The notes beneath the pieces are model-generated. The model had not been told where the DNA came from and made no database searches. It worked only from the letters and a program-made list of their open reading frames with translations. From Thermoprotei archaeon (GTDB lineage Archaea; Thermoproteota; Thermoprotei; Thermofilales; B15-G2): a stretch of DNA of 50,907 nucleotides. Position numbers and translations under genes: made by a program. Positions 10,193 to 40,348 of the stretch are shown here, piece after piece; position 1 is the first letter of the stretch, and every line of letters begins with the position of its first letter. The stretch is from assembly GCA_003649445.1 (NCBI GenBank), contig QMRV01000013.1:1-50907 (forward strand). The letters run 5' to 3'.

Positions 10193-10273
10193 TTAAGTTT
10201 TTATTTTATGTGCAGAGCAGTATTTTAAATATTAACTTCATAGCCTTCTTTTATTCTAGTTAAACTGATAACC

Positions 10274-15076: not shown

Positions 15077-18000
15077 CTAGCCTACGTGGAACTTTCTTTC
15101 CTTCAGCCAGCCCATTACTATATCCTTAATGACTGCCGCCGCCTGGTCTATGTAGACTATTGAGATTTCTTCTTCCTTCGGCTTAGCTACTAGCTCTACT
15201 GTATAGTAGTCTGTCTTAGGCATCTTCGTCATTATTAGCTCACAGTCGATGACAACTTTTCCTTTAGTTGTGTCTGAAACATACTTGAACTTAAATCTCT
15301 TTACACGCTTGCCGTCGGGGTGCTCTTCTTCCTCGAGCTCCTCTAAGTCTTCTATACGCTCAATAACTCCTCCCTCCAGATCCTTGAGCTTAGTGTAGAG
15401 ATATGAGTAGAAGACTACTGCTTCGTCCTCGTGTACGCGTATAGGCATGCCAATGGTCTTCGAAGTGTATGTGACTAAGTACTTTTCTTCACGCTCGATT
15501 TTCTCTTCCTCAGTGACTTTAGCTTTCTTAAATAATGTCGGAGAAACCTTGTAGGCTGCAGAGAGAGCTGGCCTGAATGAAGACAGCATCGATATTACTA
15601 TTGACAGCGTGACACCAATTATACTCCAGTACCACTCGAGCTTTTCTCTCACAATAAACTGGAATGGCTTAAACCACTCTGTTGTCATAAGCTTGTATGT
15701 AACTATACCAGAAATATAGCCTATTCCTCCCCCAATTAGTCCGTAGATAATAGACTCCATTAAGAACAAGGAAGCTATCTGCAGCGGATTGTAGCCTAGC
15801 GCGTTGAGTATGAATATTTCGCGGTGCCTCTCTCTAACAATACTGTACATTGTTACGGCTACGTTGCCGACTACTATTAGTATTGGGAACAGTAGCTCGT
15901 AGGAACCTACTATAACCATGCGCTCACCGAAGTGGTAAAAGCGAGCAGAACCATCCTTAACTACTGCGACATAGTAGCCTATACCCTTGCACTCTAGAAA
16001 ACTCCTTGTAGCCGCCTCTACGTTGACCCCGCTTCCAGGAACTAAAGCTATACTGTATACGCTCGATACGCGGGAAATACCTGTCTTCGTGTCGGGGAAC
16101 AGCCTGTACATCAAGTACTTCCAGCTGACAATAACTGTACTAGACGCATTACAGTAAACGATATTTTCTCCAGAGAGAATGAAGGGCAGTACCGGCTTCT
16201 TATCTATGTCCAAGTTCCCTACAGCAGCATCGTCGTATATGCCTACTACTGTCAAAGTATCTTTGTAAACACCGTAGATCCTGTTCTCTATGTAGAGCAC
16301 TACTTTATCGCCTACCTTTGCTCCAATCCTGTATGCAAGAGACTTTGGTAGCAGCACTCCCTCATCATCGAGTTTAGCTAAATCTCCTTCAACCACGTTT
16401 CCTTTAAGCCAGAACTCACGTTCCTCAGGCCCTATACCCATAATAGATACTATTCTCCTGCCGCCAACATAGATCTTAGATTCTCCGGCAAAAGTAGGCT
16501 TGAGGTAGGCTCTAACAGCGAGTACTTTCGGCTTAAAGAAGTGCTCGCAGAGACCAGTATCTTGTAGAGACAGCGACTCAGGCATATCCTTGTAGTATGC
16601 TCTAACAACAACTGCTGTACCCGAGTAGAGTACGTTGACTGGGGCTTCTGAAACAATAGTGTGTATTGTAGAGACAGATGTGAGTACTGTGAAAGCCCAT
16701 ATCAGTATCGCCAGCGAGAAAATAGTAATCGTTGTCCTCAGCTTCCTTACTCTAGCATATCTCTTAGCAATAGACGCTGTTATTGCCACAATACTTGAAA
16801 ACGACGCCTTACCCGGAACCTCGAGTTCCTTAAAGTAGCGCGGAAGCACGAAGAAAAGTGCTAGCGCCCCAGCCAGCGAGCCTATAGTGCTTACAGTGAA
16901 CTTAGTTGCATCTATTAGCTTAAAGCCTGGATAAGAATATATGAAGAGCACGAGGAACAACACATAGAAAGCTACCGTCGTAGCTATTTTTTTCTTCAAG
17001 TCTTCGTGAAAGAACATGCCCATAGCTATAGCGAATACAGCAAGTAACACTGGGAGTACTGCTGCACTTTCTTTAGCGACGAGCTTCATGAACATCAGCC
17101 TGTTGTAAAGTATACCTCTCTCACCTGGCCAGACAATAGCGTCAGCTTTCTCCAGCATAGTTAAGGCTTCTTCAACTCCAGTCTCTATAATGTAGCTTCT
17201 AGCTCTCTCTACAAGCCTCTTCGCTTCGTCAAGATACCTGTACCTCTCCTCAGCGACATAGAAGCCTATACTCTCGAACTCGTTTACCATAGACTCGAGC
17301 TTCCTTATATCCTCTTCAACTAGCTTAATACAGTAGCTGAGAGAGTCAGCTGTAATATCGTATACGAGGAAAGTTCCCTGAGAAAGCCCCTTCCTTAGAG
17401 TAGGATTATCTACGTAGAAGTGTACTTCATCGAAGTAGCCTGTCCTGTAGTTCTTAGCGGGCGCTGTAGCTAAAATAACTATAGGCGAGTCTGCGGGAAC
17501 TACAACAATACTTTCGTTGAGTGTTTTCGATATAGGACTGTTCTTCAGCACAAAGTACAGTACAGATCCGTACTCGTCTAGCAGACTTACTTTAACTCGA
17601 CCAGATTCACCAGTAATAGTCTTGACTACAGCTTCTCCACAGGAAAATACCTCAGAGTACCTCCGGTTCTCAACATTTAAGACAACGTAGCGCCTCCACC
17701 GCGAAACCTCTCCGCCAATATAGTATAGGTCTCCTTTAATGCATAGAACTGCACCAGGATAGAGCTTCACTTCACACTCTACTGACACCGCGTTTTTCTC
17801 TATAGTAAGGCATGCAGGAACATAGTCTATTAAACCTTTTTCATTGGCATGAATAAAGTGCAGAGTATAGCTCAACTGAGGAATAAGCCCTATAGAGAAA
17901 CGGCCTTCACTGTCGGTCTTAATGAGCACTGGAGAAGCTTTTGCCGCGCTCCTATTGTAGACTACGATAATTGTATCTCCCAGAGGCTTACCTGTTACAG

Positions 18001-18115
18001 CATCTCTTACGACACCCTTTACTTCAATATATATGCTAGGCTGACTATGGACTAGAGCTAGCTGAACTAGTATTACTGCTGCTAGCCCCATTAGCAAATA
18101 TTTTGAAGTCATCAT
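15077..18115 (-). CDS. FtsX/MacB-type permease with carboxypeptidase-regulatory-like ectodomain
   Basis: A 1012-aa membrane protein. A signal peptide (about 1-25, LLMGLAAVILVQLALVHS) precedes a carboxypeptidase-regulatory-like beta domain (27-115; VKGVVRDAVTGKPLGDTIIV and TDSEGRFSIGL). Further beta-rich sequence runs to about 255, followed by a helical stalk (262-330; LDEAKRLVERARSYIIETG). About three membrane helices follow (350-425) with YSYPG at 393-397, then RKLR at 457-460 opening the FtsX core. The core has a large external domain and the motif RERHREIFILNALGYNP before the last helices. A charged cytoplasmic domain ends the protein (about 880-1012). It follows the OPT gene on the same strand by 177 nt but has its own TATA box. 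No ATPase partner is nearby. Confidence 0.78.
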   Translation of the reverse strand: MMTSKYLLMGLAAVILVQLALVHSQPSIYIEVKGVVRDAVTGKPLGDTIIVVYNRSAAKASPVLIKTDSEGRFSIGLIPQLSYTLHFIHANEKGLIDYVPACLTIEKNAVSVECEVKLYPGAVLCIKGDLYYIGGEVSRWRRYVVLNVENRRYSEVFSCGEAVVKTITGESGRVKVSLLDEYGSVLYFVLKNSPISKTLNESIVVVPADSPIVILATAPAKNYRTGYFDEVHFYVDNPTLRKGLSQGTFLVYDITADSLSYCIKLVEEDIRKLESMVNEFESIGFYVAEERYRYLDEAKRLVERARSYIIETGVEEALTMLEKADAIVWPGERGILYNRLMFMKLVAKESAAVLPVLLAVFAIAMGMFFHEDLKKKIATTVAFYVLFLVLFIYSYPGFKLIDATKFTVSTIGSLAGALALFFVLPRYFKELEVPGKASFSSIVAITASIAKRYARVRKLRTTITIFSLAILIWAFTVLTSVSTIHTIVSEAPVNVLYSGTAVVVRAYYKDMPESLSLQDTGLCEHFFKPKVLAVRAYLKPTFAGESKIYVGGRRIVSIMGIGPEEREFWLKGNVVEGDLAKLDDEGVLLPKSLAYRIGAKVGDKVVLYIENRIYGVYKDTLTVVGIYDDAAVGNLDIDKKPVLPFILSGENIVYCNASSTVIVSWKYLMYRLFPDTKTGISRVSSVYSIALVPGSGVNVEAATRSFLECKGIGYYVAVVKDGSARFYHFGERMVIVGSYELLFPILIVVGNVAVTMYSIVRERHREIFILNALGYNPLQIASLFLMESIIYGLIGGGIGYISGIVTYKLMTTEWFKPFQFIVREKLEWYWSIIGVTLSIVISMLSSFRPALSAAYKVSPTLFKKAKVTEEEKIEREEKYLVTYTSKTIGMPIRVHEDEAVVFYSYLYTKLKDLEGGVIERIEDLEELEEEEHPDGKRVKRFKFKYVSDTTKGKVVIDCELIMTKMPKTDYYTVELVAKPKEEEISIVYIDQAAAVIKDIVMGWLKERKFHVG

Positions 18116-18142
18116 AGCTATTATTCTGAATTAACCTCCTCA

Positions 18143-18156
18143 ATAAATATTTTATC
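18143..18156 (-). promoter_or_regulatory. TATA box for the FtsX gene at 15077-18115
   Basis: On the minus strand this reads GATAAAATATTTAT and lies 28-41 nt upstream of the ATG at 18115. It suggests the permease can be transcribed independently of the OPT gene upstream. Confidence 0.45.
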
Positions 18157-18292
18157 ATCGATAGAAATTCTTGTTAGAATAATTAGAGTAAATTAGAGCT
18201 ATATCTTTCTACATTAAAAACAAGTAAACGCAATCTTATGTCAGAAAGTAGATTTGGAAAAAATAATGGTAAATAATTAAGATTTTATTACC

Positions 18293-20278
18293 CTATCCTC
18301 CGTATATTGCCTGGTAGTATGCAGCAATGCCTGCGAAGAAGGCTGCTAGCATTCCTCCGGCAGAGGCACCGGCGAAGAATGGTGCACCTACTTGCTCTAC
18401 TAGCTTAGTGCCACCTAGCTTGAGCATTAGCCACTTGATGACGAGGTATGGTATGAACGTGTAGCCGAAGCTCCATGGATCTAGGCCCATGCCGAAGGCT
18501 AGACCGATAGCGCTTATTGGTATAGCCCACCTGTATCTAGCGAACGTTAATGCGAAGCCTAGTATGAAACAGAAGGCATAGAAGGGTATAGCTGCGCCGC
18601 TTAGCGAGTACCAGGCCTCAATAACGTCTACTTGGTGAATAGCTCTATATGGATAGAAGAATATGTAGTATCCGTAGCCCCATGCACCAAAGTAGTCGTG
18701 CCTTATGCCGAACTGGAATGTTAACTGAGCTGAAATAATGGATTCAATGAAGTATGCAATAATGAAGCCTACTATGAGAGCTGCTGCAACTTTCTTGGGA
18801 CTGACTTTGGCTAAGAAAGCGAATCTGCTTGTCTCCATGTAGGCTACTCCAGCCATACTTGAAGTCTCTAATGCTAGCATCATTGGAGCGTATGTTCCTA
18901 CTAGCATAGGTGTTACTTCACCTACACCTCTCTGGACAACACCCATTACTTCACAAATCTGTAGTGCATCCATAAAGTAGACGGCCCAGACACTCCACAT
19001 TAAGTTACATTCTCCAATGCCGCGTATCCAGAACATGTTGGCGAGGAACAGTATGTCTAGTGCTATGAGGAATATTGCTGGGAGGAATCCTCCAAAAATT
19101 ACGCCTACTGCTAGGAACACAAGTATGCCTACAATAGCTAGTATGGCTGTTGTTCTGTAGCGGCCGAATGCGTCTTCAGGGTTCTCTTTCCATGTTTCTC
19201 TTAGTGACTTGAGACCTGTAATATAGTATGCGATCACTACAGCGTTGATCATAGCTACTGCTCCGAAGAAGAACTTGAAACCCTCAACTCTGAACGCATA
19301 GAACCATACGTCTTCTTTGCTCATGGACATGTCGAACGAAGGTATTAGTCCCATTCTAATTTCTAGTGGTAGCAGTATCATGTATGTTACGATAGCGCCT
19401 ATACTGATGCCTATCAGGCTCTCCATTGGGAAGAAGAATCCAAAGAAGCTCCATGGGAAGAAGCTGTTCCAATACATGTCTAGCATTAGGCCGGGCACGG
19501 CTTTCCATAGTTGTGGCGAGAGATCAGTGGTGCCTGGTATTACTGGTAGCCAGGGTGCTACTCTTGAGACTAAGTATCCTTCAGTGAAGGCTGTTAGGAG
19601 GAATCCTACTAAGAGTCCTACAATCATCCAGTTTCTCTTAGTGCCTAGTAGAGGGGCCTTGGCTTCTTCTCCCACCGCGTAAGCGCTTATTACTGAAGTG
19701 TATGTGGCTGTAGCTACCGGGAAGACTATTCTCTCTACTTCAATTACCTGCCTTCTGAAGGCAGCGGCGGCGAGCATGTAGGCTAGAGCGTAAGCTATTG
19801 TGACAACAAATCCTGTCAGTATCCATGGGGTTAGCTGTCCCCATGGTGGAGATACTCCTCCTTTAAGAGCTAAGTCGTATAGTTCCTTGGGTCCGAAGAC
19901 CCAAGAAGGCACTAGGCCTTGTGCCTTCATACTGTTGAGCCAGGAATATACATCTGTATGAATCCATATTGGTAGAGAGAAGAATAATGAACCATCGCTC
20001 ACAGCTGGAGCCGCGTAGATCATAGCGAAGATTACTACATAGTCTTCCATTGATAGCCTGAGCTTAGGAGGCAGGAATGATGTTATTAAGGCTATGAGGA
20101 TAATGAACATTAATGATGTTTCAGCTGTGGGTAGGAAGCCGCTGACAGGGCCGATTATTTTGATAATCCATACAGCGAGGAGCATTCCGATTATGCCTAG
20201 TATTAGACCCTTTATGGGCAGTCTGTAGGCAGCTAGTCCCTTCTCGGTCACTTCGGTCTTACCAGTTCCTTCAGACAT
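18293..20278 (-). CDS. OPT-superfamily (DUF6785/6784-like) transporter
   Basis: A polytopic protein of about 661 aa with roughly 14-16 membrane helices. Its organisation fits the OPT-like families: an N-terminal helix pair, then GVSPPWGQLTPWILTG, RRQVIEVERIVFPVATATY and LGTKRNWMIVGLLVGFLL, which parallels the FRRQ-x-x-E-x-E-R-x-x-FP segment of DUF6785/OPT-like proteins. I place the start at ATG 20278 rather than TTG 20305, because a TATA box at 20306-20314 would leave only a few nt of leader before that ATG. OPT proteins import oligopeptides or metal chelates; the substrate here is unknown. It is divergent from the M28-FtsX gene and upstream of an FtsX gene. Confidence 0.75.
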   Translation of the reverse strand: MSEGTGKTEVTEKGLAAYRLPIKGLILGIIGMLLAVWIIKIIGPVSGFLPTAETSLMFIILIALITSFLPPKLRLSMEDYVVIFAMIYAAPAVSDGSLFFSLPIWIHTDVYSWLNSMKAQGLVPSWVFGPKELYDLALKGGVSPPWGQLTPWILTGFVVTIAYALAYMLAAAAFRRQVIEVERIVFPVATATYTSVISAYAVGEEAKAPLLGTKRNWMIVGLLVGFLLTAFTEGYLVSRVAPWLPVIPGTTDLSPQLWKAVPGLMLDMYWNSFFPWSFFGFFFPMESLIGISIGAIVTYMILLPLEIRMGLIPSFDMSMSKEDVWFYAFRVEGFKFFFGAVAMINAVVIAYYITGLKSLRETWKENPEDAFGRYRTTAILAIVGILVFLAVGVIFGGFLPAIFLIALDILFLANMFWIRGIGECNLMWSVWAVYFMDALQICEVMGVVQRGVGEVTPMLVGTYAPMMLALETSSMAGVAYMETSRFAFLAKVSPKKVAAALIVGFIIAYFIESIISAQLTFQFGIRHDYFGAWGYGYYIFFYPYRAIHQVDVIEAWYSLSGAAIPFYAFCFILGFALTFARYRWAIPISAIGLAFGMGLDPWSFGYTFIPYLVIKWLMLKLGGTKLVEQVGAPFFAGASAGGMLAAFFAGIAAYYQAIYGG

Positions 20279-20305
20279 ACGGGTCGCAGAGTTATAACAA
20301 CTCAA

Positions 20306-20314
20306 CTATTTAAA
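20306..20314 (-). promoter_or_regulatory. TATA box deciding the OPT start
   Basis: TTTAAATAG on the minus strand, 28-36 nt upstream of ATG 20278. It favours that ATG over the upstream in-frame TTG at 20305, which would lie before the expected transcription start. Confidence 0.5.
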
Positions 20315-20558
20315 CCCTACAGTAAAGTATATATACTGAACAGACTGGTGGAGTCTGCTACAGTTACCACTTAATATATTGAATTTTACATAGTTAAATA
20401 AGTATTCAGTTGAAAGTGTTTTCAGTGTGTTTATCCGGCTGAGTACTCAGTAGAAGTAGAACTATACGTAGTCTAGGGCTTCTTCTTTAAGTTAAAGTTA
20501 GAAAGGAATTTATTTGTCGGCGAAAATTTAATTAGATTGTTTAAAAGAATAGGATTCG

Positions 20559-23500
20559 ATGCCGGTTGTAAGATCCGGTAACATAAAGACCATTGCATTA
20601 ATTCTAGTACTAACTATACTATGTATACCCCAAATGCAACTACCTCTTCTGTCCGCGGGAGACGCCTATGAAACTAAGCTAAATGAATTTTCCAAGTACT
20701 ATTCGACTGAAGTAAGGACACACTTAGAGTTCTTCGCCTCGAGAGGCTCTAGAGTTGTAGGCTATCCGGGCTACTACGAGTCAGTAAACTACATTGTCGA
20801 ATCTCTCAAAAGCTATGGGTATGATGTTTATGTAGAGAACTTTACTGTAACGGTTCCAATAGACTATGGCTCTTATGTTGAGATCCTGTCTCCTTATCAT
20901 AAGGTCATTAAAGCTTATGCTTTGGTCCCTAACCTTGTTGAAACATGCTATACTCCTAACGGTATTACAGCTGAGCTAGTTTACATTGGACACGGCAAAG
21001 AAGAAATGAACGGGAAGGATATTGACAACAAGATCGTGGTCATGGAGTTCGACAGCGGATATGAGTGGATGAGAGCTATTTCTCTAGGCGCTAAAGCAAT
21101 TATCTTTGTAGTTAATCCTCTTTCAGGAAGTGTAACTCAAATTGAGGCAGCAGACAAGTTTTCTGAGCTACCTATATACGCTCCTAGGCTCGCTGTAGAC
21201 TGGAACGACTTCAAGGATATCCTCTCAGAGCTCGATGCTGGAGAAAGAGTTAAGGCAAAAATAGTAGTGAATATGACTTTCGAGAATGTTGCAGCATATA
21301 ACATTATAGCGCTCAAGAAAGGCTCTAAATATTCTGATGAAGTTGTCGCATTGACAGCTTACTTTGATTCATGGTCTGTTGCTCCGGCCTGGTCTCCTGG
21401 TGCAGATGAAGCACTAGGCATATCCTCTCTACTGGCTATAGCTAAGCTATTTAAGGACGAAAAGCCTTTACGTACTGTAGCTTTTATTGCTTTCTCAGGA
21501 CATCACCAAGCTCTCGCGGGTGCGAGAGAATTTGCTTTCTCTCATGCTTTTGAAAAGCCTCTGGCTCCAATAAACTTAACAGACATTAAGCTAATGATTC
21601 ACTTAGACCCATCTGCATACTACGAGCCTAAAGGCGAAACACGTATAGCCTTACTCGACGCTGGAGCTTTCTATGGAGCAACTCCCGAAAGTAAGAGGCT
21701 CACCGAAGAAAGTTTCTTCAGCAACCCCGACTTTGGTATACTGGATCTAATAGAATTCCTATATAAAGAAAAATCTGTTCTCTTTAACCTTATTACACAA
21801 GAAGGAATAATAACAGCTTCACCCTACTATAACCCAGATAGTTACCAGCTCCTCTGGAGAAAATACTTTGAAATAGAGCCTCTTGTGCAGGCTGGAGGAT
21901 ACGGTATAGCTATAACCGCAGACACGTATTCTCCACTCAGAGGCACTCCAGCGGACACCTACATGAGCACGGCTTCACGGCTATCTAACTCTATTTACTA
22001 CGCGTTTATTGCCGTAGTATGGCTAGAGAAACTTGCTTCAGCTGACGCGCCCTTCCCACTAGAGTTCAGTAGAGTAGACCAGCGTAACATACCGAAAGCA
22101 ATAGTTTCTGTCGAAGAGTACTCAGAGGCAGAGCAGAGGTATCACCCGGTGCCCGAGGCATTAGTAGTGGCGCAGTTTAACTTTATTTCATCTAGTGTAA
22201 ACCACCAAATTATAGTTAAGACAGATGAACATGGTATTGCTGTGCTTAAGGCGCTTGCTCCACACAATAGAGGTCCTTACAGCTTCTATGCATACAAGTT
22301 TGACTACAAGACCGGAGATAGATACATGCCTAACATGGGTGATACAGCTCTCCCAAGCTTCCGCGTTAGAATAAATGCCCCTGAATATACAGTGAGAACC
22401 TCGCTCTTCAAGGCTGCTACAATAATACTCTCCGACCTCCTTGACCCAGAGTCTCTACAGCCACTGATACCGGTTATACTCGTAGTGAACCACAACACTA
22501 AGAGCAGCACAAGATACTTTGGCTTAAACTATGACCTCAAGTGGCACACAATGTCTAGAGAAACTCTGAGACCTTACGTTGCAATTTATGTCAGTGCAGA
22601 TCCCTCAATACCTCCTGGTCCTCCATGGGATGTTATAATATTCCCATCTTACTCAACATACCACCTAGTAGTACTCACTAATAGTGGATACGGTATAACA
22701 CCTACAGGCTGTGAGCAAGTATTAATCAAGTGCTCTCCACTAGTCTACGCCAAGGAGTTCCAGCTACTATGTAGCCAGTACATGCACAAAGCATTGGCTC
22801 ATCAGCTCTACTTGCCTACAATATTACATTACTTTGAGATAGCCAACGAGACTCTCAAGAAAGCAGAAGAAGCTATAGCCAAGAAGAAGTATGAGAAAGG
22901 CATAGCTCTAGCTATTGCTGCTTGGAGCTACTATAGAGCAGTATACGACGACCTCAGGAGAACAATGATAGATACAAGCTTCGCGGCAGCAATCTTCCTT
23001 CTACTAGCCTTACCATTCGCGTTTCTCGCCGAAAGACTGTTCTTTAACTTCGAGTCGCTGCGCAAGAGAGCTCTCGCAATAGCACTTCTCCTAGTCACTT
23101 CGACTTCTATAATGTACTTTGTGCACCCAGCCCTTGCGCTAGCATCAAATGCGCCCCTAGTTGTGATAGCTTTTGTTCTGATATTTGTTATAATGGCACC
23201 TCTCGGGCTAATACTGTCAAGGGTTATTGAAACGGCAAAGAAGTTCCGCCTGAAAACTACGGGAGTACACTTCTCTGACATAAGCAGAGCTAGCGCACTA
23301 ATAATGGCTGCTTCTCTAGGCGCGGGTAACCTCAGGAGACGTAAACTTAGAACAGGACTAACAATGGTCTCGCTAATGGTCGTAGTAGCTACTCTAGTCA
23401 GTACACTCTCGGTTACAACTACTAAAATCGTAACTCTTATAGAACACTACAAACTACCCGAACACGCCATAACCTACGACGGCCTACTGATAGTACGTGG

Positions 23501-25043
23501 AGAAATAGCTCCTGTTCCACTTGAGGCCATAACACAGTTTAAAGGAGAGCTCTCAGACATTATTAAAGCAATAGCTCCTAGAGCGTATCTTGAAAGGGGA
23601 CTAATACAGTTTATTAGGCCCGAAGTAATGAGAGGCGGTGAGAGAAAAGAAGGATACGAGCTAATCTATAAGGGAAGAATGATTTTTGTAAAGGGTATTT
23701 TAGGGCTCTCTCAAGGAGAGAGGTACACATATATTGAAGACGCTCTCAAGAAAGGCTATATTATAGGCCAGTACTTCTCTTCAGACGATGTAAAAGAGTG
23801 TTTAATACCTGACATACTGGCAACTCAGTATAATATAAGTATAGGAGACTACTTAACGTTCGAAGGAGAAGCACTCAAAGTAGTAGGAATATTCAATGCA
23901 GAGTGGCTTGAGTCGATTAGAGACCCGAATAACGACTTAGTGACACCTCTAGCTATAGAGGCTCCTGGAGGCGGCCGTGTACAGGCTTTAGAGGCGCGTA
24001 GACTTGAAGGCGAGGAAATAATCATAGTCCCCTACAAGGTTGTTTTAAGACACCACGGCGCGGTCTTCTCTGTAGCAGTAGTGCTCGAAGACCCAAGTAA
24101 AGTGTATGAAATTGCCCAGAGATTAACTTACAGAATTAAATACAAGATATGTGCTGCAAAAGACAAGGAAGTAAGAGTATATGCTAAAATACTCTCAGAA
24201 CAGGTTATCGGTAGAGAAGCACTAATTCCTGTGGGAATACTAGTGTTCATTATACTCAACACATGTCTGAGCGCAGTCTACGAGCGCAAAAGAGAAGTCT
24301 CTATACTGAGCTCTATAGGTCTGTCGCCGACACACGTGGCTGGACTGTTCCTACTAGAATTCATGATTATAGGTGTCGTCTCAGGAGTACTAGGCTACCT
24401 CTGCGGAATAGTACTGCCTAAGCTAATACCAGGCCTAGTGTTGAACACCTCATCTTCATGGGTAGCTGGTGCAGTAGGACTATCAATACTCATTACGCTT
24501 ACAGCCGCAATATACCCTGTATCAGTCGCATCTAAAGCAGTAACGCCGTCCTTCGAGCGCAGATGGCGTATAGAGACAGTAGGTATCAAAAGAGGAGACC
24601 GCTACATGATTAATATCCCAGTAGTGGTAAGCCCACTTGAGCTAGACGGTCTAATAAACTACCTCATAGAATACTTCAACCTGCACAGATCTGAGACAGC
24701 AGCAGACTTCATGATAGATAAAATCGAGTTATGCAAGAAAGTCTCGGCCGAAGGCGAGACAACTATACTGCACACTACCGTTAAAGTGAAGCCTTTCGAC
24801 AGCGGAGTAGTAATGACCAGCGATCTGCACTTCCACGTACCAGCTGGCTCACAAATAGTTAAAACAACACTTGACATAAATAGAGTAAGCGGAATAGACT
24901 ACGTCTACAGGAGAGGAGTAAGAAAGTTCGCCGACGCTGTAAGAAAGCAGCTATTGATGTGGAGAGCACTGACTCTAGCCGACCGCAAGCGCTACATCAA
25001 GACAGCTAAAGAAGAGCTGTCAAAGTATCTGAAAGAAGAGTAG
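20559..25043 (+). CDS. PA/M28-peptidase-like ectodomain fused to an FtsX-type permease
   Basis: A 1494-aa protein. A signal peptide (8-33) precedes an M28-like fold with a PA insert (about 135-245; ITAELVYIGHGKEEM, GAKAIIFVVN). The zinc-site segments are recognisable but altered: AYFDSW (267-272) where AHxDS is expected, GADEALG (281-287) where GADD is expected, and FSGHHQALAG (312-321) where FSGEE is expected. Catalysis by the normal M28 mechanism is therefore unlikely. A beta domain follows (about 515-600; VSVEEYSEAEQRYHPVPEAL), then a helical stalk (about 745-810). About three membrane helices with HPALAL (856-861) precede the FtsX core from RRRKLRTGLTMVSLM, with ERKREVSILSSIGLSP, and a soluble C-terminal domain (about 1360-1494). 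The OPT gene follows 57 nt downstream on the same strand. Confidence 0.8.
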   Translation: MPVVRSGNIKTIALILVLTILCIPQMQLPLLSAGDAYETKLNEFSKYYSTEVRTHLEFFASRGSRVVGYPGYYESVNYIVESLKSYGYDVYVENFTVTVPIDYGSYVEILSPYHKVIKAYALVPNLVETCYTPNGITAELVYIGHGKEEMNGKDIDNKIVVMEFDSGYEWMRAISLGAKAIIFVVNPLSGSVTQIEAADKFSELPIYAPRLAVDWNDFKDILSELDAGERVKAKIVVNMTFENVAAYNIIALKKGSKYSDEVVALTAYFDSWSVAPAWSPGADEALGISSLLAIAKLFKDEKPLRTVAFIAFSGHHQALAGAREFAFSHAFEKPLAPINLTDIKLMIHLDPSAYYEPKGETRIALLDAGAFYGATPESKRLTEESFFSNPDFGILDLIEFLYKEKSVLFNLITQEGIITASPYYNPDSYQLLWRKYFEIEPLVQAGGYGIAITADTYSPLRGTPADTYMSTASRLSNSIYYAFIAVVWLEKLASADAPFPLEFSRVDQRNIPKAIVSVEEYSEAEQRYHPVPEALVVAQFNFISSSVNHQIIVKTDEHGIAVLKALAPHNRGPYSFYAYKFDYKTGDRYMPNMGDTALPSFRVRINAPEYTVRTSLFKAATIILSDLLDPESLQPLIPVILVVNHNTKSSTRYFGLNYDLKWHTMSRETLRPYVAIYVSADPSIPPGPPWDVIIFPSYSTYHLVVLTNSGYGITPTGCEQVLIKCSPLVYAKEFQLLCSQYMHKALAHQLYLPTILHYFEIANETLKKAEEAIAKKKYEKGIALAIAAWSYYRAVYDDLRRTMIDTSFAAAIFLLLALPFAFLAERLFFNFESLRKRALAIALLLVTSTSIMYFVHPALALASNAPLVVIAFVLIFVIMAPLGLILSRVIETAKKFRLKTTGVHFSDISRASALIMAASLGAGNLRRRKLRTGLTMVSLMVVVATLVSTLSVTTTKIVTLIEHYKLPEHAITYDGLLIVRGEIAPVPLEAITQFKGELSDIIKAIAPRAYLERGLIQFIRPEVMRGGERKEGYELIYKGRMIFVKGILGLSQGERYTYIEDALKKGYIIGQYFSSDDVKECLIPDILATQYNISIGDYLTFEGEALKVVGIFNAEWLESIRDPNNDLVTPLAIEAPGGGRVQALEARRLEGEEIIIVPYKVVLRHHGAVFSVAVVLEDPSKVYEIAQRLTYRIKYKICAAKDKEVRVYAKILSEQVIGREALIPVGILVFIILNTCLSAVYERKREVSILSSIGLSPTHVAGLFLLEFMIIGVVSGVLGYLCGIVLPKLIPGLVLNTSSSWVAGAVGLSILITLTAAIYPVSVASKAVTPSFERRWRIETVGIKRGDRYMINIPVVVSPLELDGLINYLIEYFNLHRSETAADFMIDKIELCKKVSAEGETTILHTTVKVKPFDSGVVMTSDLHFHVPAGSQIVKTTLDINRVSGIDYVYRRGVRKFADAVRKQLLMWRALTLADRKRYIKTAKEELSKYLKEE

Positions 25044-25057
25044 CTCTTATAGGAAAA

Positions 25058-25097
25058 CTTAAATACTTTCAAAAGCACTCTTTTTCGGTCTGGTGAG
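25058..25097 (+). promoter_or_regulatory. TATA box and ribosome-binding site for the second OPT gene
   Basis: CTTAAATACTT at 25058-25068 is a TATA box, and GGTGAG at 25092-25097 is a Shine-Dalgarno-like site just ahead of the ATG at 25101. Although only 57 nt follow the upstream FtsX gene, this OPT gene can have its own promoter and a short leadered transcript. Confidence 0.45.
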
Positions 25098-25100
25098 ATA

Positions 25101-27023
25101 ATGTCAGGTAAGACTGAAGCCAGCGTAACTGGTCTCAGAGAAGGATTTACTGACAGAGTTATTCTCGCAATGATTTTCAGCAGCCTAATAATGACCCCAG
25201 CCTTCGGCTGGGTTCTTTTATCGACAGGAATAGGCGTAGGCCCTATTTACGCCGCCTACGTCACAATGGTTATTTTCGGAGAACTCGCCAGACTCATGAG
25301 AAGCCCCCTTAGCGAAAGCGAGCTAGCTACAATAAGGTGGGGCGCTAGCGCCGCAGTAGGCGCTGTAACAGGAATAGCGTACAACGTCTTCTTGAGAAAA
25401 TCTCCCATAACTAGGCAGGCAGGCATAGCAGACAAAATACCTATATACGTAGTACCTCCAGCGAACTCGCCCGCCTTAATACAGAGAACAATCTTCCACC
25501 CAGACTGGATTCTCCCAATTACACTAGGCTACATAGGCCTACCTTTCAGCATACTCGTCTTAGTAGGCTTATCCTTCCTAATGAGACAGATCTTCATTGA
25601 AATCGAGAAACTTCCATTCCCAACCGGTGCTCTAGCAGCCGAGCTAGCTAAAAGCCTGGCAGCCGAGGAAGGCGAGTCGAAGAGATATGAAATCTTCTGT
25701 CTCTCAGCATTCATAGCATTTCTCTACGGAACAGCCTACTATATTGCCCCAGCTCTGCTAATGGTTATTACAGGATCCCCTGTTCCAATACAGATTTTCC
25801 CGACACACATCGACTTAACAACAATGTTTGACTATACTCCTCTCTTCGGAGCAACACTGAGCTTTACTGCCGATATTCTGGCTATAAGCATTGGAATGAT
25901 TATACCTGACGCAGTAATCTACGGCGCTGTAGTAAGCTACGTAGCTACAATGATTTTTGGAAACAATATCCTAGTGAGACTAGGGCTCTACAAGTGGAAG
26001 CCAGGTACACCGATGATGGGGCCTGGTCTAACAGGCGTGTGGATGGAGACAATGCTCCACTTCTGGCTAAGCATTAGTATTGGAATAACTGTTGCTGCAG
26101 CAATAGTGCCCTTCGTCAAGAACATTAAGGGCGTTGTTAAAGGAATAATGAGTATTTTCTCGCTGAGCAAAGAGCAGGAAAGCGAGCTTGGAATATGGTC
26201 TGCTAAGAAGTGTATAATAGTGTGGCTTATAGGCTCGCTTGGACTCTGTATACTAAGCTACATAGTAGATATAACGTTCTACCCCGACGACAATCTCCCA
26301 GTATGGCTTATACCGACTATTACAATAGGTCTAGCACTAGTAAACTCGCTGAGCGCTGGGCGTTTCGCGGGCTTAATGGGTTCAGGTATAACAATTCCGT
26401 ATGCTCAGCAAGCCCTACTAATAGCCTTCTACAACGGTGTAGAAGGATGGTTCCTGCCGTTCCTAGGAGGTCCAGGTGTAACAGGCGACCCTGGATTAAT
26501 CTGCATAGGCTTCAAGGCAGCTGAGCTCACTAGAACAAAGCCTATGAGCATTATCAAGGCACACGTCATCGGAGGAATAATGGCTAGCATCAGCGGACTG
26601 TTCTTCGGCTACCTCTTCTGGCACCTCTACGACATCCCCTCACGTATACTTCCAGCACCAACATTCTACCCTGACGCCGCGATGCTAGTAATGTTCATTA
26701 CAAAGAAATTCACTTACATTAGGCCAGACTGGCTAATAGCAGGATTCATTTTCGGAGTAGTGTGGGAACTAGTGCCATTCCTTTCATCTGTACTGTCTAC
26801 TATAGGTTTAGCTTGGGGTATAGGCGCTCTACCGAGCTCAGTTACTTCGCCGTTTATAGGCTGGATAATTAAAGAAATAATCAGGAGGAAAAAAGGAGAC
26901 GAGTGGACCAGAAACTACCTATTGAGCATAGTTGCAGGAATCTGGGCTGGAGGAAGCCTAGCTCTAGCGCTGGGCACTGGTATCACCTTCGCATGGCAAG
27001 CGATCCAGCCCGGTCTCTACTGA
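25101..27023 (+). CDS. OPT-superfamily oligopeptide-type transporter
   Basis: A 640-aa polytopic protein with about 15 membrane helices and the OPT order: an N-terminal MSGKTEASVTG resembling the N-terminus of the other OPT protein, then EIEKLPFPTGALAAELAKSL, GPGLTGVWMETMLHFWLS, GRFAGLMGSGITIPYAQQA, and GDPGLICIGFKAAELTRTKP, which parallels the A-D-x-x-x-D-x-K-T-G-type segment of OPT transporters. Proton-driven import of peptides or chelated metals is the family role. It lies downstream of the M28-like FtsX gene, mirroring the OPT/FtsX pair on the other strand. Its last 60 nt overlap the 3' end of the convergent C25-like gene. Confidence 0.78.
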   Translation: MSGKTEASVTGLREGFTDRVILAMIFSSLIMTPAFGWVLLSTGIGVGPIYAAYVTMVIFGELARLMRSPLSESELATIRWGASAAVGAVTGIAYNVFLRKSPITRQAGIADKIPIYVVPPANSPALIQRTIFHPDWILPITLGYIGLPFSILVLVGLSFLMRQIFIEIEKLPFPTGALAAELAKSLAAEEGESKRYEIFCLSAFIAFLYGTAYYIAPALLMVITGSPVPIQIFPTHIDLTTMFDYTPLFGATLSFTADILAISIGMIIPDAVIYGAVVSYVATMIFGNNILVRLGLYKWKPGTPMMGPGLTGVWMETMLHFWLSISIGITVAAAIVPFVKNIKGVVKGIMSIFSLSKEQESELGIWSAKKCIIVWLIGSLGLCILSYIVDITFYPDDNLPVWLIPTITIGLALVNSLSAGRFAGLMGSGITIPYAQQALLIAFYNGVEGWFLPFLGGPGVTGDPGLICIGFKAAELTRTKPMSIIKAHVIGGIMASISGLFFGYLFWHLYDIPSRILPAPTFYPDAAMLVMFITKKFTYIRPDWLIAGFIFGVVWELVPFLSSVLSTIGLAWGIGALPSSVTSPFIGWIIKEIIRRKKGDEWTRNYLLSIVAGIWAGGSLALALGTGITFAWQAIQPGLY

Positions 27024-28877
27024 ACGCGTTCGAGTTTTCTTGGCTTTCATTCTTTCTTTTAGTATTATTGCAGCTATAAATAATGCTACTAGGAGAATTA
27101 TTAAGACTATCATGTACTGGGCCATAGGGTTCTTATAATATATCGTTATAATGAATTTCTCGCCAGCAACAATATTGCCCATTTCTGAGAAAGCTCTAGA
27201 CAAGAATACCAATATTCTTGTTTTACTACCTTTCTCTTCGTATACAATCCACCTGAGTACGCTCTGCCCCTGAATATCTATTTTCTTAATGTCTTCTTTC
27301 TTAGCGTTGACGACAATTTCGTCTATGAAGACTACTGTAGTCGATTTAGTTAGAACTATTTCGAATTTCCTGTTCTTTTCTAGTACTCTAAACTTGTAGA
27401 GGGAGAGATTTACGTTGGGGAATGGTTTTAGCTCGGGGTCTCCTATGAGTACTGCGTGTATTCTAGCTGCAATATCTTTTTCCTTCCTCTCTCCTATGTG
27501 GAGATTTAGCACGTATTTTACTGCTTCTCCTAGAGTTTTTCCCTTGAGAATACTTATGAGCAGTAGCTCTGGGTGAGCTGTACTTGTTTCTGCTCCTCCG
27601 AGCTCGACGTAAAGTGAGCCTATGTAGGCTAATGCCCCCATTCTAATGAAGCTAAAAGCTATGCTTTTTTCGGCACTGATCAGTTCTTGGAAGTCGCATG
27701 TGCTACACGATAGAGTGAAGACTACTGTCGGAGGAAGAAGCGGTAGTGTGCGAGGAGTTATGACTGAGGGACCTGCTGTCGTAGGAGCCATAGAGTAAGG
27801 GGATCCATGTAAGTTTATGTAAGTTAGTACTCCGCTTTCTCTAAGCACTTTGCTTACGTCTGCAGCAGTCAAGTTTGTTCCCTTAAAGTTTGATGACACC
27901 CACACTACGCTGTAATTGCACATTTTGAGAAGCCAGGCCATCTTTACTGCTATTGGCCACGAGTTATACATGTAGATTTGAGCTACTCTATGCTTCCAGT
28001 CTCCTTTAGCTAAGTTGTATAGTTTTGCTTTAGCAATAAGCATAGTGACATCGAATATGCTTATTCCTGAGAGAAGAGATACTGCTGGAATTAAGTAGTC
28101 TTTGTCGAATCCTTTGAGGCATGCTCCGTAGATGTCTTTGATAGTGCTATATTTTTCTCCCTTAAGGTACTTTAGGGAAGCAATGTATACTACGTACTCT
28201 GGTTCTACTCTCTTAATGAGCTCTACTAGCTTCTCGTCTTTAGTGACGTCGCTTGATACATAGAGTACTGCTTTTTTAATTGCAGCGTAGTACGGGGCTA
28301 CTACAGCGTACTCGTCTCCTAGATTAGTTACGACAATGAATTTTCTAGCGAGGTTTTCTTTTAGGACATAGTCTACTACGGCTTCGCTTTTCTTGAAGTA
28401 GACCGCTTCTACACTTGTTTTCCAAGAGAGCTCTACTAGGTATATTTTCTTGGGAGAGTACTGAGCTAAGTACTGGCTGAATACTCTGTATTCGCGGCAG
28501 AAAACTACAGGTTTTTTGAGTATTCCAGCTAAGTATGCTCCGTAGAGAACGCTTTTCAGAGAGCTGACGTTAGCGAAAATTATTGTACTTGTGCCTAATG
28601 TCGAGAAAGCTATTTTAAGGGGATTTTCTGGTGCTTCGACTACTTCAGCGCTGTAGTACTTCTTGAAGTTAGCTATGAGTACTGCTTCCTCAGAGCTGTT
28701 GGCGCTCAGAATTAAGAGCGTATCTGTAGCCGCTGAAACAGGTACTAGTGTTAAAAACGACGACTTGCTTCTGCAGAAAAATAGCTTTGGTATGGGCTGT
28801 GCAGCTAAGAAGGCGTTTAGAAATATACTCAATGCCAGTAAAGCTACTAGTGTATATAAATACTTGGTTTTATTCAT
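26964..28877 (-). CDS. Membrane-anchored gingipain/caspase-like (C25-like, clan CD) protein
   Basis: A 637-aa protein with a signal peptide (7-27) and a single C-terminal membrane helix (about 593-613, MIVLIILLVALFIAAIIL) before a basic tail, so most of it is outside the cell. The central region has the clan CD pattern: a beta strand leading to His-Gly (TYINLHGSP, H357-G358), then a strand ending in the catalytic-Cys position (VVFTLSCSTCDF, C391), followed by SIAFSFIRMGALAYIGS, as in C25 gingipains where SC is followed by a helix and GG-A-x-A-x-x-G. LIGDPEL closes the domain. It is probably a cell-surface cysteine peptidase or a relative. It lies 35 nt downstream of the PLB-FtsX gene and is likely co-transcribed with it. 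Confidence 0.65.
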   Translation of the reverse strand: MNKTKYLYTLVALLALSIFLNAFLAAQPIPKLFFCRSKSSFLTLVPVSAATDTLLILSANSSEEAVLIANFKKYYSAEVVEAPENPLKIAFSTLGTSTIIFANVSSLKSVLYGAYLAGILKKPVVFCREYRVFSQYLAQYSPKKIYLVELSWKTSVEAVYFKKSEAVVDYVLKENLARKFIVVTNLGDEYAVVAPYYAAIKKAVLYVSSDVTKDEKLVELIKRVEPEYVVYIASLKYLKGEKYSTIKDIYGACLKGFDKDYLIPAVSLLSGISIFDVTMLIAKAKLYNLAKGDWKHRVAQIYMYNSWPIAVKMAWLLKMCNYSVVWVSSNFKGTNLTAADVSKVLRESGVLTYINLHGSPYSMAPTTAGPSVITPRTLPLLPPTVVFTLSCSTCDFQELISAEKSIAFSFIRMGALAYIGSLYVELGGAETSTAHPELLLISILKGKTLGEAVKYVLNLHIGERKEKDIAARIHAVLIGDPELKPFPNVNLSLYKFRVLEKNRKFEIVLTKSTTVVFIDEIVVNAKKEDIKKIDIQGQSVLRWIVYEEKGSKTRILVFLSRAFSEMGNIVAGEKFIITIYYKNPMAQYMIVLIILLVALFIAAIILKERMKAKKTRTRSVETGLDRLPCEGDTSAQR

Positions 28878-28912
28878 CGAGTAATTAAAAACAGCTGTCT
28901 TAAATTAATCTT

Positions 28913-31900
28913 CTAGTCTCTGAAAAGCTTGTAGCCTTTAGAACTCAGTACTCTACTTTTAAGGAGCACTTCTCTTACCATTGAGAGCACTCTGTAGTTG
29001 AATTCGCGGTAGCCTGCTCCTGCGCCGAGCTGCTGAAGGTATATTGTCATTTTGTAGTATGGTCTGTCTTCCTCTAGTATTTTCTTGGCCACTACTTTGA
29101 TTTCTACTTCGAAGTCTCTTTCGCTCATTCTCATGTACCTGAATTTGAGCACTCTTTCGTCAGGCTTCTTTTCGTAGCTTATATTGTCTACTCTCTCGAA
29201 AACACCATATTCGCTAAAAGCTCTCTTGAAGTATGAGACGACATTTTTCAGAACCTCGTCTATTTCTTTTTCAGGGAACCTTATGGGGACATTTATTATG
29301 AAGAGCGGTAGGCCTCTGTAGCCTTTGACTTTCTTTGCTTCGAGCTTCCACTTCAGCTCAAGTGAAGGTGTGGCTGCTACAGAGGCTTTTCTGATAGCGG
29401 GATAGGATGCTAGAACACATATTACGAAGGAGAAGAAGAAGACCATTGCTGCCGACGTTGCGGAGAACTTGTAGGCTAATACTTCTACGCCCATGTAGGC
29501 TGCAGTAGTGCTGAGAAACATTCCTACTATGAAGGAGAAAGGTGTTGTGAGGAGGGCGTAGATAAAGTCTTCTGTGAGGCCTAGTACTTGGAGCTGTGTC
29601 GGAGATAGCCCTAGAACAGACATTGTTCTGAGCTCATCTAGCCTCTCGTACAGCGACGCAGACATTGTGGCGAACATCATTAAGCCCGCGAAGATTAGCA
29701 GTACTATTGCTTCTCCTCCTCTAAGCTTCATTACTTCCGCTTTAACGAAGCCTTTGACCCAGCCTCCGCCGACAACGTATACTGCGACGTCGGGTACAGA
29801 GTCTAGTATAATTTTCATTAGCCTGTAGCTGTCTTCCATAGAAGTCGTCGGTATGAGCACTGACAGTATTCTTAAATTGAATCTGCCGACGTCTTTGCTG
29901 GATACTATTATTAAGCGGTCTCCGTCGACTGGCCTAGTTCTGTAAATTGTTCCTCCTTCAGTATATATTGTTTCAATGTAGTAGGGTAGCGGCGACTTTA
30001 AGTCGACATCTTTTATTTCGTTTATCTTATTGCTGAAGAAGCCTACTATTGTGAGCTTATACCAGCCCGCGCCTCCAATGTATACTGTTATCTTAGAGCC
30101 TAGCTTTGCTCCATAGTTTTTAGTATATGAAGGTAGTGCTATTTCACCCGAGTTCTCCGGCAGTCTTCCCTCAACAATATATTTCTTCAGCATACTGGAA
30201 GTGTACTTGTCTTCAACAGCTAGTATTCCGTAGAACCATACTCTTCCTTTAGGCAAGTAGACTCTAGCTCTGTAGTACGAAGATATTCCGGTGCCGTACC
30301 TTATTTCCGTGTGCGGAAGGTCTTTAGTTAAGTCGAGTATACTTGAAGGTACTGGCCGGTAGCTTCTTCCCCTAACTACAATAAAGTTTTCACAAGTACC
30401 GCTCGGCATACTTTCTAGTAGCATTGGGCCCGGGCTTACTTCAGTTGAAGTAAAAGCCAGTATACCTGATAGAGCTAGAACTATTGTAGTGAGCGTTAAG
30501 AAGAAGCGGAGTTTGCGTTTTCTGAAGTTCCGGAAGCTCATATTTAGGTACGCGAAGAAAGCTGATAGTAGCTGGAATCCACTTGGATTGGGTTTTTCTG
30601 GAGCTTTAGATGGAAGTAGCTCTACTAGCGTGTAGAAGAATACTGCAGCGAAAATAAACCATAGCAGGGAGTCATAGAATACACTGTACTCTGTTTTCTT
30701 TAAGGCTAGCAGAGCTCCAGGATGTAGCAAAAATATTATTATTGTGAGAACTGCAGCTACTGCTATTCTTGTTTTTCTACTAGCTTTTTCTTCTACAAGT
30801 ACTTTCGGTAGGGAAACAATAGGTATTGCTGCTAGAAATGTGTACAGAGGCAAAGAAGATATTGCTTGCGTTTCCAGTACTTCACACATCTTAGTAATTG
30901 TTTTAGAGATAGCTATTACTCTAAGGGAAAGAACAACTGAAGAGTACATGTCGCCTATTTCGCTTAAATTCCGCGCTTCATCAAGTAAGCTGGCGGCGTA
31001 GCTAGCCTGGTCTTCGAGTCTCTTTAAGTAAATGCCTACTGATCTCAGTGTAGCTAGTTCACTTACTGCTTTTGACAAGTACTCTTTAGCTTTCTCTACT
31101 CCTATTTCGAGTTCAGCTAAATTGCCTACTTTAGGTGAAGGCTCGAGAAGAACCCACTCATTAGATGGGAAATCTACTAAGTAGTCTTTCTGCCAGCTCC
31201 ACTTGGGGTTCTTTTTGAGAAAATCTTCAGCATCGAAAGCCATTTTGTTCGGGTGACCCCAAATAGCTAGTGTTTGAAGCTTCTTAATTAAACTAGAGTC
31301 TGCTACTTTCGCGTCTACTGCTCCCCACGGAGTTCCAATTACTTCACCGCACATGCTTACTGTTCGATGAGTAGGAGTCTTTTTCTGAAGGTAGACGTCG
31401 TAGTCGTCTGAAATAAACTTCTTAGCTAGCTCAAGGTCTATTTTACCGTAGTATTCTTCAAAAAGCTGATTAAGGCGCACGTACCTGGCGTACCCGCTGC
31501 AGACGAGGCTTCTGCAGAGACTTCTTGTCTCCTGTGCTACTTTCGGGTTGACAGCCATGTTTGTTGAAACGAAGTACCCGTTTTTGGTTCTGTTGATTGC
31601 ATAAGTTGAGAGCCCTATTTCTACTACAGCTATTTCACCTGTTTTGATGTCTCCGAGGTACCATCTATTGGAGTATGCTCCGTTGTTTCCTGTGAGCATT
31701 ATGTTTACCCACTCGTCTATACTGGACGCGTACTGGGCGGCCATTCTCGCTCTAACGAATACAGGTATTCCTGACTCATTGAAAAGCGACATAGAGATAG
31801 TTGTCTCAGATATAACTAGCCCTGCACTAGTTATGTACCAGTCTGTGCCGCTCCACATGTAGCCGGGAAAGCTCTGCATGAAGATTTCGTAGCCTTTATC

Positions 31901-32512
31901 GGGCTTAATGTGTATGAATACATTGAAGTACCTGGCTACGAAGTACGCAAACCAAGTATTGTGGGCTACTACTATTCCTCCGTCTTTAGTAGCGCTTCCC
32001 GTGGCTATGAAGCCGGAGCACCTTGAGTGGAGCTCTAGGAACAAGTAGTGTGAAGTACTACTGAGGCGCCTTGAATTAAGGTAGCTTTCGAGGTCCATGA
32101 AAGCATTGCTTGTAAAAATATCTTTCCAAGTAATATCGTAGCCTCTTATTCTTACTCCATCTGCTATGCCGAAGATTTCGCTCTGAAGCTCTGCAGGGAC
32201 TTTAGACCACATTAAGCTAACCGAGAGATTTACTGCCTGTTTCCAGGAAATACCGTGGTAGTGTTGAAGGTATAGCTTGAGTGCGCCAATAGACTCTACT
32301 ATTTCGTCTGCCAGCCAGTAGCCGTGCTGGAAACCTCTTCTGTAGGGGTCTCCTTCTATGTGAACTATTATCCAGCCAGCTTTAGTTGCTCTCCAGGATC
32401 CAGCGAGGAGCTTAAGTATGTTGGGCTGAGAGAGAACAGCTTCAGCGTAATAGAAGCCGAATACAAGTAGAGTTGCTAGAAGTAAAGAAGTCGCTTTACT
32501 CTTGTTTAACAT
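28913..32512 (-). CDS. Phospholipase-B-like Ntn-amidase ectodomain fused to an FtsX-type permease
   Basis: About 1199 aa. After a signal peptide comes a phospholipase-B-like (PF04916-type) domain, about 45-480: GDPYRRGFQHGYWLADEIV, then HSRCSGFIATGSATKDGG and VVAHNTWFAYFVARYF, then FPGYMWSGTDWYITSAGLVI followed by SETTISM, and GAYSNRWYLGDIKTGEIAVV. The Cys in RCSGF (165 from this start) is where the autocatalytic N-terminal nucleophile lies in PLBD proteins, so the amidase may be active. A helical stalk (485-575), about three membrane helices with LLHPGALL, an FtsX core from KRKLRFFLTLTTIV with YERLDELRTMSVLGLSP, and a soluble C-terminal domain (about 1075-1199) follow. I use ATG 32512, preceded by GGTGAT, rather than TTG 32515. 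Confidence 0.78.
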   Translation of the reverse strand: MLNKSKATSLLLATLLVFGFYYAEAVLSQPNILKLLAGSWRATKAGWIIVHIEGDPYRRGFQHGYWLADEIVESIGALKLYLQHYHGISWKQAVNLSVSLMWSKVPAELQSEIFGIADGVRIRGYDITWKDIFTSNAFMDLESYLNSRRLSSTSHYLFLELHSRCSGFIATGSATKDGGIVVAHNTWFAYFVARYFNVFIHIKPDKGYEIFMQSFPGYMWSGTDWYITSAGLVISETTISMSLFNESGIPVFVRARMAAQYASSIDEWVNIMLTGNNGAYSNRWYLGDIKTGEIAVVEIGLSTYAINRTKNGYFVSTNMAVNPKVAQETRSLCRSLVCSGYARYVRLNQLFEEYYGKIDLELAKKFISDDYDVYLQKKTPTHRTVSMCGEVIGTPWGAVDAKVADSSLIKKLQTLAIWGHPNKMAFDAEDFLKKNPKWSWQKDYLVDFPSNEWVLLEPSPKVGNLAELEIGVEKAKEYLSKAVSELATLRSVGIYLKRLEDQASYAASLLDEARNLSEIGDMYSSVVLSLRVIAISKTITKMCEVLETQAISSLPLYTFLAAIPIVSLPKVLVEEKASRKTRIAVAAVLTIIIFLLHPGALLALKKTEYSVFYDSLLWFIFAAVFFYTLVELLPSKAPEKPNPSGFQLLSAFFAYLNMSFRNFRKRKLRFFLTLTTIVLALSGILAFTSTEVSPGPMLLESMPSGTCENFIVVRGRSYRPVPSSILDLTKDLPHTEIRYGTGISSYYRARVYLPKGRVWFYGILAVEDKYTSSMLKKYIVEGRLPENSGEIALPSYTKNYGAKLGSKITVYIGGAGWYKLTIVGFFSNKINEIKDVDLKSPLPYYIETIYTEGGTIYRTRPVDGDRLIIVSSKDVGRFNLRILSVLIPTTSMEDSYRLMKIILDSVPDVAVYVVGGGWVKGFVKAEVMKLRGGEAIVLLIFAGLMMFATMSASLYERLDELRTMSVLGLSPTQLQVLGLTEDFIYALLTTPFSFIVGMFLSTTAAYMGVEVLAYKFSATSAAMVFFFSFVICVLASYPAIRKASVAATPSLELKWKLEAKKVKGYRGLPLFIINVPIRFPEKEIDEVLKNVVSYFKRAFSEYGVFERVDNISYEKKPDERVLKFRYMRMSERDFEVEIKVVAKKILEEDRPYYKMTIYLQQLGAGAGYREFNYRVLSMVREVLLKSRVLSSKGYKLFRD

Positions 32513-40302: not shown

Positions 40303-40348
40303 TGTTTTTTACACCTAAATCTTCTAAAGAAAAGCTAAATATTTGCTA

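Follow-up and report, generated by a model that had tools for sequence, protein, structure and literature searches.

The stretch of DNA analysed here (the window, 50,907 nucleotides of contig QMRV01000013.1 from a Thermoprotei archaeon) encodes three giant permeases of the FtsX type, P1, P2 and P3 (Table 1). One of them, P2, which carries an M28 peptidase-like ectodomain (M28-FtsX), belongs to a module found in archaea and bacteria, in which the M28-FtsX gene is accompanied by the genes of two OPT-type transporters, OPT-A and OPT-B. We propose, with a probability of roughly 45%, that P2 and its two OPT neighbours constitute one uptake module, for which a small FtsX protein (mini-FtsX) and an ABC ATPase would serve as shared motor. 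The trans-domain module with its probable single-copy hub of mini-FtsX and ATPase is a stronger finding than the trio of FtsX genes in the window, on which an earlier, sequence-only reading of the same DNA had centred.

The window holds the canonical set in divergent order, OPT-A being encoded on the opposite strand to P2 and OPT-B. A protein search returned 90 relatives of P2, the source names of which include Bathyarchaeota, Latescibacterota and Desulfobacterales. A scan of species genomes gave 223 confirmed stretches, the best 80 of which were used as loci, 10 archaeal and 70 bacterial, the latter from Armatimonadota, Poribacteria, Omnitrophota, Planctomycetota, Hydrogenedentota and others. 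At least 500 bp is available downstream of M28-FtsX in 68 of these loci, and in 51 of the 68 OPT-B follows within 600 bp on the same strand. The gap between the two genes is at most 101 bp in 38 of the 51, and five pairs overlap. When the distance is extended to 5 kb, OPT-B is present in 56 of the 68, and OPT-A in 5 of the other 12. In one protein (P0026, 2130 amino acids, aa) an M28-FtsX and the DUF6785-DUF6784 domains of the OPT-A type are fused in a single chain. Nine archaeal genomes have a total of 59 M28-FtsX places, between 1 and 11 per genome; an OPT gene lies within 3 kb of 52 of them, and 22 have both kinds. OPT-B was within 3 kb of 44 of the 59 places versus 1 of 50 control LolD-like ATPases. 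Viewed from the transporters of these genomes, 44 of 54 OPT-B and 30 of 44 OPT-A matches are near an M28-FtsX. One to three M28-FtsX frames per genome were counted in 16 module-bearing bacteria.

This linkage bears on a somewhat unlikely alternative, in which the OPT carriers and the giant FtsX act separately on the same substrate, the FtsX complex being an exporter, a lipid extractor or an envelope-remodelling machine and the OPT proteins ordinary secondary importers which share only its regulation. Such a division of labour would agree with the type VII ABC systems described in the available text of PMC12646458, which extract, export or regulate and do not import, and the predicted Bet v 1/START-like fold of the C-terminal domain of P2 hints at a hydrophobic ligand. 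It is opposed by the single chain of P0026, by the short or overlapping gene gaps, and by the persistence of the linkage from archaea to bacteria and across several paralogues per genome.

The assignment of the two transporters differs in its basis. OPT-B is recognised by PF03169 (OPT) with 60 bits (E = 2.4e-16, cut-off 25.8). For OPT-A, no Pfam match to PF20581 or PF20580 was obtained even at E ≤ 10. A hidden Markov model of DUF6785-type proteins, built without the window OPT-A, matched this protein alone among the 59 open reading frames of the window (89 bits, E = 9e-28). Its counterparts in loci L001, L002 and L027 are DUF6785 plus DUF6784 by Pfam, and those in L227 and L228 fail the cut-offs of PF20581 and PF20580; the window OPT-A is 35% identical to that of L227.

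The sequence-only reading had described P1, P2 and P3 as three giant FtsX proteins built on one scaffold with different ectodomains, and this was confirmed. All three exceed the Pfam cut-off of PF02687 (FtsX; 25.5 bits) with 53.4, 46.7 and 36.4 bits, respectively, and pairwise BLASTP detects homology between P1 and P2 (E = 4e-22), P2 and P3 (7e-23) and P1 and P3 (2e-14). The C-terminal domains were matched by hhalign with probabilities of 96.7% (P1/P2) and 97.5% (P3/P2), and more weakly for P1/P3 (65.5%). The scaffold consists of a stalk, three extra membrane helices, an FtsX core of the MacB/LolC type and a C-terminal domain. Its predicted structures match the folds of MacB, LolC, FtsX, HrtB and YbbP and contain both the MacB-type extracytoplasmic core and the four-helix membrane core. 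The C-terminal domain is predicted to resemble the Bet v 1/START (helix-grip) fold. The identical order of elements, which was to be checked by structure prediction, was found in the models of P2 (residues 490–1494, pLDDT 82.4) and of the membrane and C-terminal half of P3; P1 is placed with them by BLASTP, hhalign and a hydropathy scan, in which the helix order is alike in all three. The motif ERxxExxxLxx[LI]GxxP, which we take to be the FtsX coupling helix, had been reported as common to the three; it is exact in P1 and P2, and in P3 a Met replaces the Leu (ERLDELRTMSVLGLSP).

The M28-like domain of P2 was recognised by PF04389 (44.9 bits, cut-off 21.3) and is homologous to the aminopeptidase 2ek8 (E = 5.9e-18). 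In the alignment with 2ek8, the His-x-Asp of the peptidase is Tyr-x-Asp in P2 and the Glu-Glu is His-His. These replacements extend over the family. Among the aligned M28-FtsX rows having a residue at the position, the general-base Glu is kept in 0 of 192, His being found there in 175, the ligand Glu is kept in 1 of 192, and the first His of the di-zinc site in 35 of 189. The full catalytic site is intact in 5 of 5 standalone M28 controls from the same genomes. Because the residues were lost family-wide and the controls are intact, the fused domain is an ancient pseudopeptidase whose conserved site is of a different kind. The catalytic residues being replaced, a working peptidase was rejected, and with it the earlier suggestion that the M28 domain takes part in processing peptides. 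On the evidence of its residues, the domain would only be able to bind.

Given that two OPT-type carriers constantly accompany M28-FtsX, and that one protein unites permease and carrier, capture by a receptor followed by an ATP-driven stroke that feeds OPT uptake is the simplest reading. The M28-like domain, no longer cutting, would bind an extracellular ligand, be it a peptide, a glycopeptide or a related compound. Homology suggests that the FtsX core uses ATP to move a signal or ligand through the membrane; stalk and core would transmit the ATP-driven motion from one side of the membrane to the other, as MacB and LolCDE do. The captured ligand might then be passed to the OPT-A and OPT-B carriers, or the motion might open them, and the carriers would move the ligand inward. 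A hydrophobic ligand may be held by the C-terminal domain, or the domain may act as a regulator of the ATPase. The motor would be a LolD-like ABC ATPase with mini-FtsX, and P1, which lacks an enzyme domain, and P3 would be sister proteins, perhaps using the same motor for other ligands, P3 cutting its ligand much like TesA beside YbbAP.

The window genes that were scanned with Pfam include no ABC ATPase. What probably supplies the energy, mini-FtsX in single copy together with an ABC ATPase, is coded elsewhere in archaeal genomes and thus lay beyond the view of the sequence-only reading. Mini-FtsX has the four-helix core only. Of the 70 bacterial loci, 21 encode a mini-FtsX of 208–316 aa no more than 10 kb from M28-FtsX, and none of the 10 archaeal module loci encodes one. 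An ABC ATPase directly follows mini-FtsX in 19 of the 21 bacterial loci and in 19 of 26 archaeal ones. All 16 module-bearing bacteria have mini-FtsX, always as a single copy, and one strong match was obtained in 6 of the nine archaeal genomes. Among 398 archaeal genomes of the phylum of G002, mini-FtsX is present in 55, always in single copy, and M28-FtsX in 49; both occur together in 40 genomes against 6.8 expected, and in 34 of 40 against 5.0 expected when the nine query-source genomes are left out, figures which are inflated by kinship, as related genomes are not independent.

The four-helix core of the type VII class needs a second core. Because of this, and because mini-FtsX is single-copy and mostly beside an ATPase, it would suggest itself as the partner of all giant FtsX proteins in the cell. 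If the mini-FtsX/ATPase pair can join any giant FtsX, one motor would serve many modules. The copy numbers, a single mini-FtsX in 6 of 9 genomes versus up to 11 M28-FtsX places, are consistent with ECF-like sharing, in number only.

Several observations, together with the kinship noted above, weigh against the proposed module with a shared motor. Neither OPT-A nor OPT-B was found in the fetched locus in 7 of the 68 loci. By a motif test, 4 of the 26 archaeal mini-FtsX loci have room for an ATPase directly downstream and none there. Mini-FtsX was not found in the window, nor in 9 of the 49 genomes with M28-FtsX, among them three of the nine studied closely (G003, G008 and G009). G009, a genome that may be incomplete, has six M28-FtsX places but lacks mini-FtsX, and none of its LolD-like ATPase matches is better than E = 2.5e-46. 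Conversely, mini-FtsX occurs in 15 genomes in which no M28-FtsX reaches E ≤ 1e-40. Moreover, ligand binding, transport direction, the pairing of hub and module and physical contact with the OPT carriers are steps that we infer.

Some of these points would also fit a distinctly unlikely explanation, that the giant FtsX forms homodimers served by whichever LolD-like ATPase the cell has, mini-FtsX and its ATPase being an unrelated housekeeping transporter that co-occurs through shared ancestry. In each of the genomes G001–G008, one or more LolD-like ATPases (E < 1e-65) are indeed encoded apart from mini-FtsX, and several of them adjoin ordinary permeases of ~400 aa. Among the scanned neighbours of the hub, three are OB-fold proteins and one is DNA polymerase DP2, and the 15 genomes and G009 show that either partner can be found without the other. 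This explanation is at odds with the bacterial loci in which mini-FtsX lies near M28-FtsX and with the excess of shared genomes; 4 of the 15 exceptions, furthermore, encode a different giant FtsX built on the common scaffold.

The ectodomains of P1 and P3 had been described as carboxypeptidase-regulatory-like (CRL) and phospholipase-B-like. The three types named for P1, P2 and P3 stand, with some revision. The CRL match of P1 to PF13620 (24.9 bits) is under the Pfam cut-off of 32.3. P1 and P2 are matched by hhalign over CRL domain and stalk with 97.9%, and since P2 has a CRL domain between M28 and stalk, the ectodomain of P1 is nested in that of P2. P3 matches PF04916 (phospholipase B-like) with 61.2 bits (cut-off 27) and NF040521 (C45_proenzyme) with 143.7 bits (cut-off 85), the latter being its best name. 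Its Cys165 is conserved in P3 and the 6 aligned relatives, and P3 is probably, to judge by sequence, an active C45 amidohydrolase anchored on the scaffold. Apart from P3 itself, a protein search gave a single relative with the C45-FtsX fusion (88% identical), and at E ≤ 1e-30 over the whole length none of the 398 genomes has it. The enzyme domain also occurs as free proteins of ~455 aa in another archaeon (43% and 40% identical).

The earlier idea of a modular family, in which hydrolase-derived ectodomains are carried by one mechanical scaffold, is supported. Further giant FtsX proteins of the relatives have ectodomains that are GH2-like or unrecognised. The giant FtsX of L119 (5369-10747, 1792 aa) has an ectodomain matching GH2 sugar-binding and immunoglobulin-like domains without a match to the catalytic barrel, and is perhaps another pseudo-enzyme receptor. 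Two bacterial M28-FtsX proteins have a further domain in their N-terminal part, LysM in L035 (8852-16306, 2484 aa) and a bacterial Ig-like domain in L045 (4640-13750, 3036 aa), a hint of contact with cell wall or glycan. A broader proposal, which we regard as doubtful, is that of a novel mode of membrane transport by ATP-gated OPT carriers, ancient enough to be present in both archaea and bacteria: a type VII mechanotransmission motor, with one shared mini-FtsX/ATPase hub per cell, would drive many pseudo-enzyme-derived receptors, each bound to its own OPT-A/OPT-B pair, and the receptor heads would be exchanged, some being inactive (M28, perhaps GH2-like) and others active (C45) hydrolases.

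In the sequence-only reading, the three FtsX proteins, two OPT transporters, a C25-like protein and an S45 acylase could form one peptide/amide processing-and-uptake system. All of these genes do lie in one stretch, and locus L227 of another genome keeps OPT-A, M28-FtsX (33% identical to P2), OPT-B (41%), the C25-like gene (30%) and, in addition, one more giant FtsX, the ectodomain of which is different and unrecognised. We consider a single system of the three FtsX proteins very improbable all the same. Full-length P1 orthologues were found in four archaeal genomes (28–39% identical), and in 3 of the 4 no OPT gene is present in the fetched flanks. In L112, OPT-B and M28-FtsX follow ~7 kb away from the P1 orthologue; the orthologues in L111–L113 share a neighbour of ~195 aa instead of OPT. 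With the rarity of the C45-FtsX fusion and the lost catalytic residues of the M28 domain, the conserved trio was rejected: the OPT link is deeply conserved for the M28 type, P2 alone of the three is kept near OPT genes, and P1 and P3 are related to it by their scaffold without being constant members of the module. The S45 gene, for which no homologue was found in the 80 loci, was rejected as a part of it. The C25-like protein, the family match of which is sub-threshold (Table 1), also has no homologue in the 80 loci; it recurs only in L227 (17429-19270, E = 1e-42), where the copy scores 30.2 bits with PF01364.

Table 1. Features of the window discussed in the text, with positions on the 50,907-nucleotide stretch.
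Feature	Position	Strand	Remarks
P1, 1012 aa	15077..18115	-	Signal peptide, CRL domain, helical stalk, 3 extra membrane helices, FtsX core, C-terminal domain
OPT-A, 670 aa	18293..20305	-	Divergent member of the DUF6785-DUF6784 (OPT-like) group
P2, 1494 aa	20559..25043	+	M28-like pseudopeptidase, CRL domain, stalk, FtsX scaffold
M28-like domain of P2, ~residues 50-480	20706..21998	+	Catalytic residues replaced
CRL domain of P2, ~residues 511-618	22089..22412	+	hhalign profile comparison with P1
Motif of P2, ERKREVSILSSIGLSP	24282..24329	+	Read from sequence
C-terminal domain of P2	24591..25040	+	Bet v 1/START-like fold in predicted model
OPT-B, 640 aa, OPT family transporter	25101..27023	+	Starts 57 bp after P2
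C25-like surface protein, 637 aa	26964..28877	-	C-terminal membrane anchor; PF01364 18.6 bits, under cut-off 23
P3	28913..32515	-	C45/phospholipase-B-like N-terminal nucleophile (Ntn) hydrolase on FtsX scaffold; 1200 aa from TTG, 1199 from ATG at 32512
Cys165 of P3 (1199 numbering)	32018..32020	-	Predicted N-terminal nucleophile after self-cleavage; conserved in aligned relatives
S45 penicillin-amidase family protein, 683 aa	32596..34647	-	PF01804 457.5 bits

Other neighbours were also recorded. An M1-peptidase-like protein is encoded beside the module in L227 (6886-8709, 607 aa, with a predicted C-terminal membrane helix) and in L228 (219-2039, 606 aa). Near the module in the window (37441-42820) there are PA14-containing GH3 and GH38 genes, and upstream of it the genes of a GH2 (2231-3970) and a BNR-repeat protein (7758-8945), surroundings which suggest a glycan-degrading setting. 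A fragment with the start of ATPase_2 (PF01637; 12721-13179) and one with a DUF234 end (13717-14118), both within 12721-14118 on the forward strand, look like two parts of one broken archaeal AAA gene. They are followed on the same strand by a 269-aa protein (14208-15017) with the CDC48 N-terminal and domain-2 modules, the latter in two stretches, and without the AAA ATPase domain. HEPN (874-1269) and PIN (35746-36174) domain genes on the reverse strand are possibly parts of toxin-antitoxin systems. A stretch of ~1.3 kb (8946-10273) has no open reading frame above 70 aa. No Rfam match was found anywhere in the window, and a tRNA search of it found none.

The OPT carriers known so far act on their own as secondary transporters. 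In the superfamily (PF03169, DUF6785/DUF6784) OPT-B belongs to the former and OPT-A to the DUF6785 group, and here both kinds flank a type VII permease. Group II ECF transporters have one shared energising module for many substrate modules; the proposed hub would be alike at most in its working, with an FtsX-type permease and OPT in place of EcfT and EcfS, which no search targeted. From MacAB-TolC and LolCDE (PDB 5gko, 5lj7, 3ftj, 7mdx) the giant FtsX proteins differ by the three extra membrane helices, the stalk, the exchangeable enzyme-derived ectodomains, the modelled Bet v 1/START-like C-terminal domain, the OPT partners and the lack of a nearby ATPase gene in archaeal loci. P2 is homologous to the M28 aminopeptidases (PDB 2ek8, 6hc6) over the domain, with catalytic and zinc-ligand residues replaced in its family, and P3 is set apart from C45 acyltransferases and phospholipase B-like proteins (PDB 2x1c, 4bwc) by its fusion to a type VII ABC scaffold. 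The nearest functional parallel to P3 is YbbAP-TesA of E. coli (PMC12646458), where a type VII permease presents substrates to a hydrolase outside the membrane. TesA, in contrast to the enzyme domain of P3, is a protein of its own. The membrane fold of YbbP has 10 helices, and no OPT partner is described in the available text, in which none of the type VII systems involves OPT. Among open-licence full texts, neither a published description of FtsX with OPT and M28 nor relevant text on DUF6785 was found.

The association of OPT with giant FtsX may thus be an undescribed nutrient-uptake machine, perhaps with a single shared motor in each cell. The module, three genes plus a two-gene hub, is small and accessible to experiment. 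If the proposal is true, two transporter superfamilies not known to cooperate would become joined, DUF6785/DUF6784 would gain a role, and import would become a likely function of type VII ABC machines. The retention of a peptidase fold whose chemistry had been lost would also be accounted for, and uncultured archaea and Armatimonadota would have an amplified uptake system with a logic comparable to that of ECF.

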